Shown here: positions 49,040 to 61,262 of the stretch, one piece after another
Layout of the letters: each line of letters opens with the position of its first letter
How positions within the stretch are numbered: the first letter of the stretch is position 1
Source of the DNA: Exiguobacterium sp. Helios
Lineage (GTDB): Bacteria; Bacillota; Bacilli; Exiguobacteriales; Exiguobacteriaceae
Reading direction: 5' to 3'
DNA length: 64,000 nt
Assembly (NCBI RefSeq): GCF_014524545.1
Contig: NZ_CP053557.1
Coordinates: 2,629,501-2,693,500 of the forward strand
The notes under the pieces: generated by a model
What the model was told of the DNA's origin: nothing
Database searches by the model: none
What the model saw: the letters and a program-made list of their open reading frames with translations, nothing else
Program-made: the position numbers and the translations under genes

Positions 49040-49932
49040 TGCGGATTTCAAACAACGTACAGGCTTTGAAAGCCTACCGAAACTTAAGTGCCAATCAGAT
49101 GAACGTCAAGACAACGATGGATAAACTGTCGAGTGGTCAAAAAATTAACCGCGGCGCTGACGATGCGGCTGGTCTCGCGATTTCTGAAAAGATGCGGAAC
49201 CGTCTCAAAGCACTTGATAAAGCGGAACAGAACGTCCTCGACGGAATTTCAATGGTTCAAACGGTCGAAGGCGGACTCAGTGAAACACACAACCTGTTGC
49301 AACGGATGCGGGAACTGGCCGTTCAAGCAGGGAACGGAACACTTGCAACCGAAGACCGGACGGCGATCCAGGAAGAAGTCAATCAGTTGACGAATGAAGT
49401 CTCACGGATTGCCGAGACAACCCAGTTCAACGGTAAAAAACTATTGACAGGTGGCTTCAGTACAGAAGACAATGCGGTCTTCATTCAGACGAATGCAGGC
49501 GCGAACGAAGGCATTTCTTTAACGATTGATGATATGCGCGCACTCAACATCGGAATCAGTACGACCGTCAAACCCAACGCCGACGCCCGGACACTCGATT
49601 ATCCAAGCGTCAACACAACACCGGAATACGCGCTCAGCGTCATGACGAACAGCGACGCCGATGAAGCTATCAGCCGTTATACACAGGCCATCGATACGAT
49701 TTCCCAGCAACGGGCAAAACTCGGAGCGATCCAAAACCGGTTCGAAGCAACATCGTCCGTCCTCAGTGTCAGTAAAGAAAACCTGACGGCGTCCGAGTCA
49801 CGCATTCGTGATACCGATATGGCGCGTGAGATGATGGAGTACGCGAAGTACAATATCCTCAATCAATCAGGCATGGCGATGATCGCCCAGGCAAACGCCT
49901 TACCGCAAGGCGTCTTACAACTACTCAACTAA
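49039..49932 (+). CDS. second flagellin
   Basis: The product has 297 residues with conserved D0/D1 ends: RISNNVQALKAYRNLSANQM and [18 protein letters not shown] at the start, and [19 protein letters not shown] at the end. The middle (about 140-215) is short and variable. It shares one base with the FliS-like stop codon. It differs from the intron-containing flagellin at 56845 by its central part and by RI in place of II at the N-terminus. A minor filament or junction protein is possible. Confidence 0.93.
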   Translation: MRISNNVQALKAYRNLSANQMNVKTTMDKLSSGQKINRGADDAAGLAISEKMRNRLKALDKAEQNVLDGISMVQTVEGGLSETHNLLQRMRELAVQAGNGTLATEDRTAIQEEVNQLTNEVSRIAETTQFNGKKLLTGGFSTEDNAVFIQTNAGANEGISLTIDDMRALNIGISTTVKPNADARTLDYPSVNTTPEYALSVMTNSDADEAISRYTQAIDTISQQRAKLGAIQNRFEATSSVLSVSKENLTASESRIRDTDMAREMMEYAKYNILNQSGMAMIAQANALPQGVLQLLN

Positions 49933-55911: not shown

Positions 55912-56182
55912 TTTATTTTAAACTTCATAAAATCAGGAATAAAGGAACATACGTTCTTTTATGAAAGAAGCTTTGCTATGCTGATTGATAGATTATCAAA
56001 TGCTCAACAAGCTATCTCACTAGCAAGTATTTTAGTCGAGGGTGAAATCACAAAATGTTATCTAAAATCTCGTAGGAAAAACAAAATAGTGAACGAGAAC
56101 ACTTTGGTGAATCGCAACGATTTTATCGTGAAGACTACTCGTGTCAAAAATACATTTACATTTTTGGAGCAAGTTTCACCGT

Positions 56183-56443
56183 ATGCAGTGGACTTATCAA
56201 AGTTTGCTCATTAAGTTAGACTGACAGGCTCGTCTCAACCAACTTAAATATGAACATCCACAGTATCAAGTACTCGCCTCAAACCCTTCTAGACCGTATA
56301 CATCAGAAGAATGCACTACCATTCTGGAACTCAAGACAAGCGGATGGACGACACAAGCAATCTCTGAAAAATCCAACCGGACATATTGGTCCGTCACCTA
56401 TAAATTTGGACAACTAAAAAAAGGCCATGGAACAAGTCCATGA
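56183..56443 (+). pseudogene. helix-turn-helix protein remnant with an in-frame stop
   Basis: From ATG 56183 the frame reads MQWTYQSLLIKLD, then TGA, then QARLNQLKYEHPQYQVLASN and RPYTSEECTTILELKTSGWT with TQAISEKSNRTYWSVTYKFG to a stop at 56441. The second half looks like a Myb/SANT-like or resolvase-type helix-turn-helix. The single stop in an otherwise open frame suggests decay of a gene of about 86 codons or longer. Its last codons overlap the flagellin terminator. Function unknown. Confidence 0.5.
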
Positions 56444-56450
56444 CCTTTAA
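56416..56450 (-). terminator. flagellin terminator
   Basis: Minus strand: AAAGGTCATGGA with TCCATGGCCTTT around a short loop, then T. It lies 24 bp after the stop codon of the 3' exon. Confidence 0.85.
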
Positions 56451-56473
56451 GTAAATGATATGACCAATTACGA

Positions 56474-56518
56474 TTAACGGAGTAATTGGAGAACGCCTTG
56501 CGGCTGTTGGTTCGCTTG
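56474..56518 (-). other. hag: 3' exon of the flagellin gene (15 codons)
   Basis: The minus strand reads [14 protein letters not shown] and TAA, the canonical flagellin C-terminus. No flagellin sequence lies before it; the preceding DNA is a group I intron ending in G at 56519. Joined to codon GCT at 56892-56890 it completes the flagellin. Confidence 0.82.
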
Positions 56519-56889
56519 CTACGCGCATTAACTTTCGCTAATGATAAGACTATATCTTCATCCTAGTTTTACTAGGAGCTGGGCGCTTCCCCCGCCGTTT
56601 ACGGAGTACGGATTTCATAACCATCGGAAGTGTCCATTAGGTCGTCTATCCTAGTCGTTGAACCTTCACCAAGGTTTCCCTACAGGTGCTTGGCTGCTGA
56701 TTGTCCAATCCTTGACGTTTTTCAGAACGGTCACGCTCGCCGTTTCCAGCCACGTTGTCGTACATCAAGGCTCTAAAGGAGTTCCAGCAATTCACCCAGT
56801 CATGCTCTGATCAGTTACCCAATCAGACGCCCGGTGGAATCAAATTACCGAAGGAGTTGAAGCACGCCTTGAGGTGTTTGATTCGATTG
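56519..56889 (-). ncRNA. predicted group I self-splicing intron in the flagellin gene
   Basis: Core elements in order on the minus strand: P4 5' strand in AATTGCTGGAACTCC (56792-56778), P4/P6 CAGCAGCCAAGC (56699-56688), P7 5' strand GGTTCAACGACTAG (56664-56651), P7 3' strand AAGATATAGTC (56558-56548), and a GAAA-capped P9 hairpin (56543-56526). The terminal G is at 56519. The 5' splice site is placed after the T of GCT at 56890, because that gives the U rule and the correct frame. P1 could not be fixed, so the 5' end is the least certain part. The intron has no endonuclease gene. Its first 45 nt encode [18 protein letters not shown], a copy of the exon it displaces. Confidence 0.8.
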
Positions 56890-57687
56890 AGCCAACATTG
56901 CTTGTGCAGCTTGCGCAAGAATCGAGTTCTTTGTTTGGTTCATCATTTCTTTCGCCATGTCAACGTCACGAACACGTGATTCAGCCGCTGTTAGGTTTTC
57001 AGAAGATGTTTTAAGGTTATTGATTGTGTGCTCTAAACGATTTTGAGTAGCACCAAGTTTAGAACGCTCTGCTGAAACTGTTTCAATCGCATCGTTTACT
57101 GTAGTGATAGCTGTGTTAGCACCAGTCTGAGTAGTAATGTCAATACCAACTGTTGAAGCTTCATCTGTTCCCGTACCAACTGCAAGTGCAGTTGCATCCA
57201 TGTTACCGATGACTAATGTGAGGTTTTGTGATTCATTTGCACCAATTTGGAACACTTTACCGTCAGTATCTGAACCATCAAGTAATTTTTGAGTGTTAAA
57301 CTCAGTAGTTTTAGCAATACGTGTAGTTTCTTTTGCTAACTGAGTAAATTCTTTTTGTAATTCTTCACGATCAGTAAGTGTGTTAGTATCGTTGGCAGAT
57401 TGAGTCGCTAATTCACGCATCCGTTGAAGAATGTCATGCGTTTCGTTCAATGCACCTTCAGCTGTTTGAATCAATGAGATACCGTCTTGTGCGTTACGTG
57501 AAGCTTGATCAAGTCCACGAACTTGTCCACGCATTTTTTCAGAGATTGCAAGACCAGCTGCGTCGTCGCCTGCTTTGTTGATGCGAAGACCTGAAGCCAG
57601 TTTCTCCATTGATTTCCCTTGAGCTGAAGAAGCTGCAGAAAGTTTGTTGTGTGTGTTAAGTGCTGTAATGTTGTGATTGATAATCAT
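56845..57687 (-). CDS. hag: main flagellin (unspliced frame; 5' exon to 56890)
   Basis: The product has 280 residues with conserved ends: [20 protein letters not shown] and [18 protein letters not shown] at the N-terminus. A short variable middle lies at about 130-190. The open frame ends at 56845 with [18 protein letters not shown], using 15 codons inside the predicted intron. Splicing would replace these with [14 protein letters not shown], giving the same length. A GGAGGG site precedes the ATG, and a sigma-D promoter lies about 125 bp upstream. Position beside flaG and fliD matches B. subtilis hag. Confidence 0.93.
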
Positions 57688-59393: not shown

Positions 59394-60908
59394 TTATTTG
59401 CGGTCAATCTCAACGTATTTATAGGAAATATCTGTTCCGACATTGTGACGGGCCAGGTTTTTCACTTCCGTGTTTTGAAGGAAAGCATTTTTCCGTTGGT
59501 AGACCGGTGAAATCGCTTGATCGTCGAGTAACATCGTTTCGGCTTCGCTTAAGAGTTCCAAACGTTTGTCCTGATCGAGTTCGTTTTCTGCCTGTTTCAA
59601 GAGTTTGTCATACTGTTTGTTCGAGTAGTCCATCATGTTGAACGGATTTCCTGTCATGAAGAGGTTCAAGTATGTTGTCGCATCTTGATAATCCGGAGCC
59701 CAGCTTGCGAGTGACAAGTCATAATCCCCTCGTCCTTCACGCGCCAACCGTTCTTTTTTCGGCAGTGACAACAGCTTAACATCGACATTTTGTTGTTTCA
59801 GTGAACCTTGGATGTATTCGCCGATTTTCTTTGAGACATCGTCGTCTTCAATAATCATCGTCAACTCGAGGTTTTGATCCGAGAGTACTTGTTTCGCTTG
59901 TGCTGCGTCAAATGATGATTCAATTTGACGGGTCTTGTCGTATTTTGGATCGAGTTCCTGCGGGACGATGTAATCGGCCGGCAGTGAGCCGTTTCCGAGT
60001 AACGTTTCTGTCAGTGCTTTTTTATCGTACGCCGCATCAATCGCCTGACGTGTCTTCCGATTTTGTAATGCTTCTGTTTTTTGATTCATCCGGATGAAGA
60101 ACATCCGTGAGTCGCTGAACGTGTTGTACTCTTTTTTATTTTTGTACGTGACGACATTTTCTGAGTTGAGTGGTGCAACATCGAGTTCTCCTGTTTCAAA
60201 CAGATTGATCGCAAGCATCGGATCTTTGATGATTTTGACATCCACTTCGTCAATCTTGACGTTTTTGCGGTCCGCGTAGTCTGCGTTTTTCGCGAGCGTG
60301 TAGCCTTGCTCCGCCTGATATTTCTTGAACGTGAACGGTCCGTTGTAGACGTTCGTTTTTGGATCCGTTCCGAATTTTTCACCTTTTGCTTTGACGATGT
60401 CTTCCCGGACCGGCATGTACGTACCGAACGTCGTCATGCTGAGGAAGTATGGCGTCGGGCGTTTGAGTTCAATCTGTAACGTTTCGTCGTCGATGACCTT
60501 TGTTTCTTTAACCGGCTCGAGCAGATAAGCAAACGGTGAATTTGTCTCGATGACCCGCTCATAAGCATAGCGGAAGTTTTCCGCCGTGACCGGCTTGCCG
60601 TCTGACCATTTCGCGCTTGGGTCAAGTTTAAACGTGTAGACTTTTCCGTCTTCCGATACAGTGTGTGACTTCGCTGCTGCCGGAACGAGTTCGTTATTTG
60701 CATCAAAGCGGTAGAGTCCTTCGTAAATCTGGTTAAAGATATTTGACGTAATGGCATCTGCCGGATCAACCGACAGGAGATCATAACTTTCCATCGTGTG
60801 CAGGACTTTCTTTTCGTTTTCATTTGGTGCTGCTTTTTCTGTTTCCGTCGTCGAGCATCCTGCGAGTAGGAACGCCGTGCTTGCCGCCGCGATCAATGTC
60901 TTTTTCAT
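59394..60908 (-). CDS. peptide ABC transporter substrate-binding lipoprotein (OppA family)
   Basis: The ATG at 60908 follows an AGGAGG site. The product has 504 residues. The lipoprotein signal KKTLIAAASTAFLLAGC ends in a lipobox cysteine. The SBP_bac_5 fold includes KWSDGKPVTAENFRYAYERV and YNGPFTFKKY. No permease or ATPase gene follows, so it is an orphan that must use a transporter encoded elsewhere. A T-box leader just upstream reads tRNA charging, probably tRNA-Trp, so uptake should rise when that amino acid runs short. Confidence 0.94.
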   Translation of the reverse strand: MKKTLIAAASTAFLLAGCSTTETEKAAPNENEKKVLHTMESYDLLSVDPADAITSNIFNQIYEGLYRFDANNELVPAAAKSHTVSEDGKVYTFKLDPSAKWSDGKPVTAENFRYAYERVIETNSPFAYLLEPVKETKVIDDETLQIELKRPTPYFLSMTTFGTYMPVREDIVKAKGEKFGTDPKTNVYNGPFTFKKYQAEQGYTLAKNADYADRKNVKIDEVDVKIIKDPMLAINLFETGELDVAPLNSENVVTYKNKKEYNTFSDSRMFFIRMNQKTEALQNRKTRQAIDAAYDKKALTETLLGNGSLPADYIVPQELDPKYDKTRQIESSFDAAQAKQVLSDQNLELTMIIEDDDVSKKIGEYIQGSLKQQNVDVKLLSLPKKERLAREGRGDYDLSLASWAPDYQDATTYLNLFMTGNPFNMMDYSNKQYDKLLKQAENELDQDKRLELLSEAETMLLDDQAISPVYQRKNAFLQNTEVKNLARHNVGTDISYKYVEIDRK

Positions 60909-60967
60909 CAAAAATTCCTCCTAAAGATAATGTGCGTTGGATAATTCGGCGTTCCTTGACGTAAAAC

Positions 60968-61262
60968 AAAAGACGCCCTCTATGCCACAGCAAAAGCTGA
61001 TGCATAGAGGACGCCTGTATCCGCGCGGTGCCACCTCTAGTTGAGATTAAAAATCTCCTCTTGTCGCTAGTCCAACAACCAGCTAGCCCGGTAACGGGGG
61101 CAACCGTCCTGTCTACTGAATCGTTCAACAGGCTCTCAGCGGTCCATTCCCTGATCAGCTTACCGCGTCAGGCTCTCACCTTTCCTGACTCGCTTTGTCG
61201 GCAGTGTTGACGGTACTTACTCCGCGTCGTTGATTTGTTTGATATGGCTTAACTTGTTGTTT
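60968..61262 (-). promoter_or_regulatory. T-box riboswitch leader, specifier probably UGG (Trp)
   Basis: The T-box AGAGGTGGCACCGCG (61038-61024) is followed by the terminator GCGTCCTCTATGC/GCATAGAGGGCGTC with TTTTG (about 61013-60968). The T-box 5' half can pair alternatively with the terminator's 5' arm to make an antiterminator. Stem I spans about 61225-61130 with a GGTGAGAGCC apical element. In the standard pattern GAA-specifier-ACC-N2-TGAG the sequence reads GAA-TGG-ACC-GC-TGAG, with TGG at 61146-61144. The UGGC of the T-box would pair with GCCA, fitting a tRNA with discriminator G, as tRNA-Trp has. Confidence 0.9.

Follow-up and report, generated by a model that had tools for sequence, protein, structure and literature searches.

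In Exiguobacterium sp. Helios, a flagellin gene carries a group I intron shortly before its 3' end, and the opening codons of that intron repeat the flagellin C-terminus that the intron displaces. The question raised by this locus is whether the gene has one coding end or two, that is, whether the copy inside the intron is an accident, a structural part of the ribozyme, or a second tail read by ribosomes whenever the intron stays in the RNA. The locus was analyzed within a stretch of 64,000 nucleotides (contig NZ_CP053557.1, positions 2,629,501 to 2,693,500; hereafter the window), to which all positions refer. The explanation that we consider best, at a probability of about 0.77, is optional splicing of an intron with a spare tail in its P1 loop, by which full-length flagellin would be made from spliced and unspliced mRNA alike, with a small difference in the tail. 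The sequences show the anatomy, the spread, the constraint on the two tails and the base-pairing covariation, and splicing in the cell and the coexistence of both mRNAs and both proteins are what we infer from them.

Identification of the intron was performed with Rfam cmscan, in which the group I intron model RF00028 matched the minus strand at 56847-56526 (79.2 bits against a gathering score of 50; E 1.7e-18). A group I intron had been claimed here in an earlier sequence-only reading, which had also set rejection of the fold by a covariance model beforehand as grounds for refuting it; the score bears the claim out, and the fold was accepted by RF00028. Two marks of membership in group I, a conserved core with P7 and an RF00028 score above gathering, were found, and this intron is the single match to the model in the genome at E 0.001. 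The same model matched at the same site in all 20 further loci tested (18 of the 26 representatives defined below and the two copy-less loci L114 and L119). An insertion after the P7 strand is visible in the Rfam alignment; a P7.1/P7.2-type insertion there, together with a subgroup-specific core, would mark subgroup IA2. The intron lies 14 codons before the end of the Exiguobacterium flagellin gene, and its length of 371 nt leaves no room for an endonuclease gene inside. E. antarcticum DSM 14480 (locus L024) has a 99% identical flagellin. Downstream of the intron, an inverted repeat (CCAATTAC/GTAATTGG) spans the copy-2 stop codon at 56464-56489 on the minus strand. The features of the locus are collected in Table 1.

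Table 1. Features of the intron-bearing flagellin locus and its 3' flank, in window positions (a slash in GCU/C marks the 5' splice site).
Feature	Position	Strand	Remarks and basis
Flagellin reading frame, unspliced RNA	56845-57687	-	280 aa, complete without splicing; Pfam Flagellin_N and Flagellin_C
5' exon	56890-57687	-	Ends ...GTTGGCT; final U predicted as the exon partner in the U.G pair
Group I intron	56519-56889	-	Predicted, 371 nt; Rfam match and boundary comparison
Copy 1, intron-borne alternative terminal exon	56845-56889	-	Start is the P1 5' strand, remainder in the P1 loop
5' splice-site strand of P1, GCU/C	56889-56892	-	Exon/guide compensation across 108 introns
Internal guide sequence GGGC (proposed)	56829-56832	-	Exon/guide compensation
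P1 extension, 5' strand GAATCAAA	56877-56884	-	Within copy-1 codons 2-5; swap test and fold
P1 extension, 3' strand TTTGATTC	56837-56844	-	Immediately 3' of the copy-1 stop codon; swap test and fold
P2 hairpin	56806-56827	-	Fold
Conserved catalytic core (P3-P8, P7)	56548-56797	-	Rfam alignment
P9 hairpin, GAAA loop	56526-56543	-	Rfam alignment
Copy 2, native 3' exon	56474-56518	-	Sequence comparison
Terminator-like inverted repeat, then T run	56416-56449	-	3' of copy 2; read from sequence by eye
Relic of convergent LAGLIDADG endonuclease gene	55978-56419	+	tblastn and open relatives with PF03161

The intron boundaries were derived by comparison with an intronless relative (L020), in which the positions that match 56890 and 56518 are adjacent (98% over the 59 nt that match from 56518 onward). 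Both copies begin with CAA, leaving an ambiguity of 3 nt that was settled by the terminal G of the intron, since a G as last intron nucleotide precedes the 3' exon in 106/106 introns with a located 3' exon. So placed, the predicted intron begins with CAAUCG and ends in G. At its 5' end, the predicted pairing with the guide in the window is G56892-C56829, C56891-G56830, U56890.G56831 and C56889-G56832, and a U.G pair at the 5' splice site was likewise found in the structural reading of the other sequences, as GCU/C-GGGC or UCU/C-GGGA. Exon and guide change in compensation: GCT occurs with GGGC in 104 of the 108 distinct introns and TCT with GGGA in the remaining 4 (L116, L117, L198 and L199), with an exception outside this table in the two G661 loci, which carry GGGT where GGGC is expected (a G.U pair). 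The Rfam alignment begins at the copy-1 stop codon and has its P1 there, with several non-pairs; the evidence for the 5' boundary is that of the guide sequence and not this alignment. In the minimum-energy fold of the isolated 5' region, GCU/C is not paired with GGGC and the guide lies in another helix. No convincing P10 pairing of the 3' exon with the guide region was seen on inspection by eye. A 5' splice site after copy 1 was considered and rejected: no GCU/C-like guide partner was found there by eye, and such a site would leave the constraint on copy 2 and the GCT/TCT-GGGC/GGGA compensation unexplained. The intron coordinates of the sequence-only reading hold, by the empty site in L020, the terminal G and the guide evidence, and so does its placement of the 5' splice site before the first stop codon, a later site being argued against by the compensatory exon/guide change.

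Beyond the guide, the stop codon of copy 1 is immediately followed by a segment that pairs with the copy's codons 2-5 (GAATCAAA/TTTGATTC in the window; the sequences differ in other lineages). Pairing energies were compared between the two strands of the same locus and strands swapped between loci; across 26 representatives, own strands gave a mean of -7.69 kcal/mol vs -4.55 kcal/mol for swapped strands, and 78% of the swapped pairs were weaker than the own pair. None of 5000 random pairings of the whole set was as good as the own pairs. A P1 stem built from the copy's own codons is thus supported by covariation, as a predicted structure.

Copies were counted in 108 distinct introns at this site, after loci sharing the first 300 nt had been merged and with the two loci of G661 excluded from all statistics. 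Constraint and residue counts are based on the 103 loci in which both copies were located (L164, at a contig end, and L226 have copy 1, with copy 2 not in the stretch examined, and were excluded from the 103), and 26 representatives were chosen at <85% core identity. An in-frame copy of 14 codons with a stop is retained in 105 of the 108, which is beyond chance; two introns have a short stop and in one the copy is frameshifted. The diverged exon copy with its own stop that had been described inside the window intron (33/45 bases and 12/14 residues identical between the copies) is therefore real, being kept in 105/108. The copy-less introns are L114 and L119, with a short stop after Q (FEQVA-stop and LLVA-stop), and the frameshifted copy belongs to L191, from a genome that also holds an intact locus (L190); given these three, the copy is not strictly required at this site.

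Selection on the two tails was estimated as pN/pS, and the values are rough, with pS around 0.74 and near saturation. Among the 26 representatives, pN/pS was lowest in copy 2 (0.066), followed by copy-1 codons 6-14 (0.108), the final 13 codons of the 5' exon (0.191) and copy-1 codons 2-14 (0.221); in this order, the values across all 103 loci were 0.101, 0.156, 0.213 and 0.245, and copy 1 read in frames +1 and +2 gave 1.17 and 4.33 in the same 103. The residues VLQLL (9-13) are identical between copies in 103/103 loci, with up to 6 codons per residue in use. No locus among the 103 has two identical tails, the difference being one residue or more, and of 258 differences between own copies 208 fall at residues 2-5, which the double duty of the first copy-1 codons as P1 stem may help explain. 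Residue 8 tends to change together in the two copies (G-G 73, S-Q 13, A-A 10, A-G 6, Q-Q 1), and in L121 both copies end in LLG. Over residues 6-14, the match of each copy to its own partner was better than in any of 2000 shuffles, both in all 103 loci and in the representatives, and own copies there agree in 95% of residues vs 71% of bases. Within Exiguobacterium, the copy-1 peptide is identical in 14/14 genomes despite 10 variable sites out of 45, of which 9 are third positions and 1 is in the stop codon (chance of 9/9 third positions, 4.5e-6); in copy 2 of the same 14 genomes, 2/45 sites vary, both third positions. The simplest reading of these constraint data is that both tails are translated, and the data suggest that selection keeps both, as would be expected because both RNAs are, we propose, translated. 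The further claim of the sequence-only reading, that unspliced RNA encodes a full flagellin and spliced RNA a variant with two changed residues, holds at the level of sequence and gains support from the constraint on both copies, the guide compensation and the P1 covariation.

Recent gene conversion as the process keeping the copies alike is not favoured, and occasional conversion may still take place. In the 26 representatives, the base likeness of own copies was equaled or exceeded in 264 of 2000 shuffles for codons 6-14 and in 148 of 2000 for codons 2-14; across all 103 loci no shuffle of 2000 was as high, a result that close kinship alone could give.

The spread of the intron was assessed by BLAST, in which a single intron (L028) served as query for most loci, so that relatives of L028 may be over-represented; as not every match was taken further, the genome counts are minimum values. 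With the window intron as query, the intron was present in 6 of 79 flagellin loci from named genomes, each time with both copies (E. antarcticum, Exiguobacterium sp. s193, Peribacillus muralis, Cytobacillus oceanisediminis, Rossellomorea aquimaris CH422a_13T and Bacillus sp. CH30_1T). It occurs in 14 of 19 genomes of the genus and 20 of 38 of the family, and, together with the copy, in at least 40 of 398 Bacilli genomes drawn, spanning 13 genera and 9 families, with 20 of those 40 coming from the window's own family, which was included in full in that draw. A draw of 398 genomes across the phylum gave three with the intron, namely the window genome, G113 and G661; the last lies outside the class and has two such flagellins, both with both copies. 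Query bias is not favoured as the source of the pattern, the L028 query having also brought in 70 distinct introns without a copy from an upstream flagellin site.

These upstream introns form a second group I intron type, inserted after RDVD (e.g., in L104, L117, L123 and L175) and present alongside the tail intron in 51/108 loci. All 70 distinct upstream-site introns stop after 5-6 codons and have no tail copy. In most group I introns, ribosomes are kept out by an in-frame stop shortly after the intron begins (PMC3073962), and an early in-frame stop is reported for many of them (PMC3984707). Because the upstream introns lack the copy and have an ordinary early stop, the copy is, as far as the compared introns go, a special solution at one site and not a by-product of the intron family. 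Seven related introns from other classes of the phylum (L262-L266, L268 and L269) occupy a flagellin position close to this one, after AML; they have ordinary short stops and lack a copy of the tail, and the 3' exon pattern was found in 6 of these 7. A tree of intron cores was built with 27 copy-bearing rows (including the frameshifted L191), 2 copy-less rows and 8 upstream-site rows, and 16 of its 34 inner branches are open. The copy-less L114 falls among copy-bearing rows and L119 near the base of that side in a midpoint drawing; the order of copy gain and loss is not settled by this tree. Four copy-bearing cores of f37 group with seven of the eight upstream-site cores, which suggests that cores may have been exchanged between the sites.

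A convergent gene with the LAGLIDADG_2 domain (PF03161) often lies 3' of intron-bearing flagellins, and PF03161 was found in 5/5 such genes tested. By tblastn, it is present at 53/106 loci with this intron, at 8/23 loci with only the upstream intron and at 3/97 flagellins with neither, all 3 of the latter from one locus (L047); Fisher's exact test gave 4e-15 for 61/129 vs 3/97, with rows that are not independent and an intronless set largely from other lineages. The downstream stretch searched was at least 507 bases and mostly <1,600, so that misses are not firm. The nearest LAGLIDADG match starts 42-1229 nt past the flagellin stop (median 67). At 42 of the 53 loci, the best hit lies in a stop-free frame of at least 200 aa, and open frames of the predicted endonuclease with PF03161 were found in relatives; L109, L112, L116, L117, L165 and L175 are open, and in other Exiguobacterium loci (L009, L010, L011, L012, L015 and L018) the gene is stop-free over 282-363 codons. 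The window itself holds a relic, in which the last 59 residues match by tblastn at 56249-56419 (34% identity, E 4e-7), and a 78-aa ORF at 55978-56214 (+) is perhaps a degenerate piece with the first motif. The end of the endonuclease is helix-turn-helix-like, and its PHROGs match is limited to that end; among solved structures, no endonuclease relative was found at E 0.5 or better (best 0.52). A free-standing endonuclease gene beside an intron that has none inside suggests the arrangement termed collaborative homing. In L113, L136, L158, L160, L161, L166 and L178, the region downstream of flagellin contains LAGLIDADG-like frames of another kind, with motifs such as GKLLGD and AWWYQDDG. These frames align with the N-terminal portion of the L112 protein, which would fit either a separate endonuclease for each of the two intron sites or a fusion of two endonucleases in L112.

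Under optional splicing, ribosomes on unspliced RNA would pass the 5' splice site and translate copy 1, whose stop codon, in the P1 loop before the catalytic core, would end translation and release a full-length flagellin. Between ribosomes P1 could form, and the ribozyme would pair GCU/C with the guide GGGC, cut there and join the 5' exon to CAAGCG..., giving an RNA that encodes copy 2, the canonical tail. The ratio of spliced to unspliced RNA would be set by folding and translation, and the intron would be moved by the adjacent LAGLIDADG endonuclease. Exiguobacterium includes cold-living species, and we conjecture that a spare tail would suit such a genus by freeing its flagellin from a temperature-dependent ribozyme.

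Two readings would deny one of the tails a coding function. If splicing were complete, copy 1 could be mere filler that shapes P1, its protein sequence being irrelevant, and its codons 2-5 do take part in the P1 stem; codons 6-14, however, lie in the loop and still have a pN/pS of 0.108 in the representatives with VLQLL invariant, and 5 or 6 codons suffice for the two copy-less introns at this site, so that we regard this as quite improbable. Conversely, the ribozyme might be dead or unused, with copy 1 as the real gene end and copy 2 as a relic, as the complete unspliced ORF would allow. Against this, constraint is stronger on copy 2 than on copy 1 (pN/pS 0.066), the last intron nucleotide is G in 106/106 cases, and exon and guide change together; we give this reading hardly any weight.

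Other readings accept both tails and differ in what the copy is for. In one, splicing is a regulated switch between isoforms that varies with temperature or translation load, and the proportion of the two tails matters to the filament. This would agree with the flagellin introns of thermophilic Firmicutes, whose ribozyme activity reportedly varies with temperature and favours motility under warmer conditions (PMC4853749, citing Hayakawa & Ishizuka 2012), with the residue differences between the tails in each of the 103 loci, and with the position of copy-1 codons in P1, which passing ribosomes should melt. The copy-1 differences may, however, partly follow from P1 pairing, and intronless flagellins, too, can have A or T at residue 5 and S at residue 2, so that the tails may be equivalent; we consider a regulated switch rather unlikely. 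A somewhat better but still minority case can be made for an origin in homing, in which an endonuclease that cuts the flagellin 3' end brought a recoded, cut-resistant C-terminus, as elements of fungal mitochondria do, and the ribozyme as one package, the copy being first of all immunity and repair. The convergent LAGLIDADG_2 gene (53/106 vs 3/97 intronless flagellins) and own copies 95% alike in residues 6-14 but 71% in bases speak for such an origin; against it, the upstream-site introns lack a copy, base divergence is also expected from age and P1 pairing, and half of the loci have no such gene in the flank examined. A further reading is a natural "cut and rescue" element with a ribozyme switch, in which a LAGLIDADG endonuclease spreads the intron among flagellin genes, the recoded P1 tail keeps flagellin whole and cut-resistant where the ribozyme fails (e.g., in the cold), and self-splicing picks the tail by temperature or translation. 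We hold this model to be speculative and on balance doubtful; if true, bacteria of many genera would share an alternative-last-exon switch in the form of a group I ribozyme.

As far as we know, there are hardly any descriptions of bacterial alternative splicing in which two coding ends are preserved. Group I introns in bacterial flagellin genes are themselves already known (PMC3984707, PMC4853749); those of thermophilic bacilli (Hayakawa & Ishizuka 2009, 2012, as cited in these two papers) are reported to belong to subgroup IA2 with temperature-dependent ribozyme activity (PMC4853749), and the portions of PMC3984707 and PMC4853749 drawn on mention no tail copy. The closest parallel in outcome is the Clostridium tetani group II intron C.te.I1, which has alternative 3' exons in a surface-layer gene and is presented by its authors as the first example resembling eukaryotic alternative splicing (PMC3919590). 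Both are bacterial ribozyme introns in genes for surface proteins whose spliced and unspliced RNAs encode different C-termini, here as a prediction, but C.te.I1 is a group II intron with five distinct isoforms, known from one genome, whereas the flagellin intron is group I, with two near-identical tails, one of them inside P1, in many genera (PMC3919590). In layout, the locus resembles the mORF elements of fungal mitochondria, which duplicate the C-terminus of Allomyces atp6 and of Glomus atp6, atp9, cox2 and nad3: along with a LAGLIDADG or GIY-YIG endonuclease, the insertion supplies a diverged host C-terminus and displaces the native tail downstream (PMC3630166). In those elements, as PMC3630166 describes them, the native tail is partly or wholly unused, whereas in flagellin both tails look constrained and the ribozyme could rejoin the native one; the lowest pN/pS at the locus is that of copy 2 (0.066), which argues for use of the displaced native tail, and the endonuclease gene lies outside the intron and is convergent. 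Further group I introns give more than one RNA product, namely Twort orf142 and the Coxiella 23S rRNA intron with exon skipping (PMC10136302), IStrons, and the clostridial c-di-GMP riboswitch-ribozyme (PMC3073962, PMC4853749), and for none of them do the passages of these three papers drawn on describe a P1 loop that encodes a copy of the displaced exon. An open literature search, which did not extend to the two original flagellin-intron papers, found no group I intron that carries a coding copy of its downstream exon under constraint; within that scope, the dual-tail design is apparently unreported.

The comparison of more than 100 loci provides evidence, ahead of experiment, that flagellin may be translated from both unspliced and spliced RNA, and it offers a concrete route by which a group I intron in a flagellin gene could cope with the coupling of transcription to translation. 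The arrangement would also be a natural parallel to recoded-rescue designs, and the presence of two intron designs within one gene, with and without a spare tail, makes the question directly testable. Elsewhere in the window, a second flagellin gene at 49042-49926 (+) is 50% identical to the main one and has no intron at this site. A T-box leader (RF00230, 96.9 bits) lies at 61004-61239 (-), upstream of 59394-60911, which looks like a putative gene for a peptide-binding lipoprotein.
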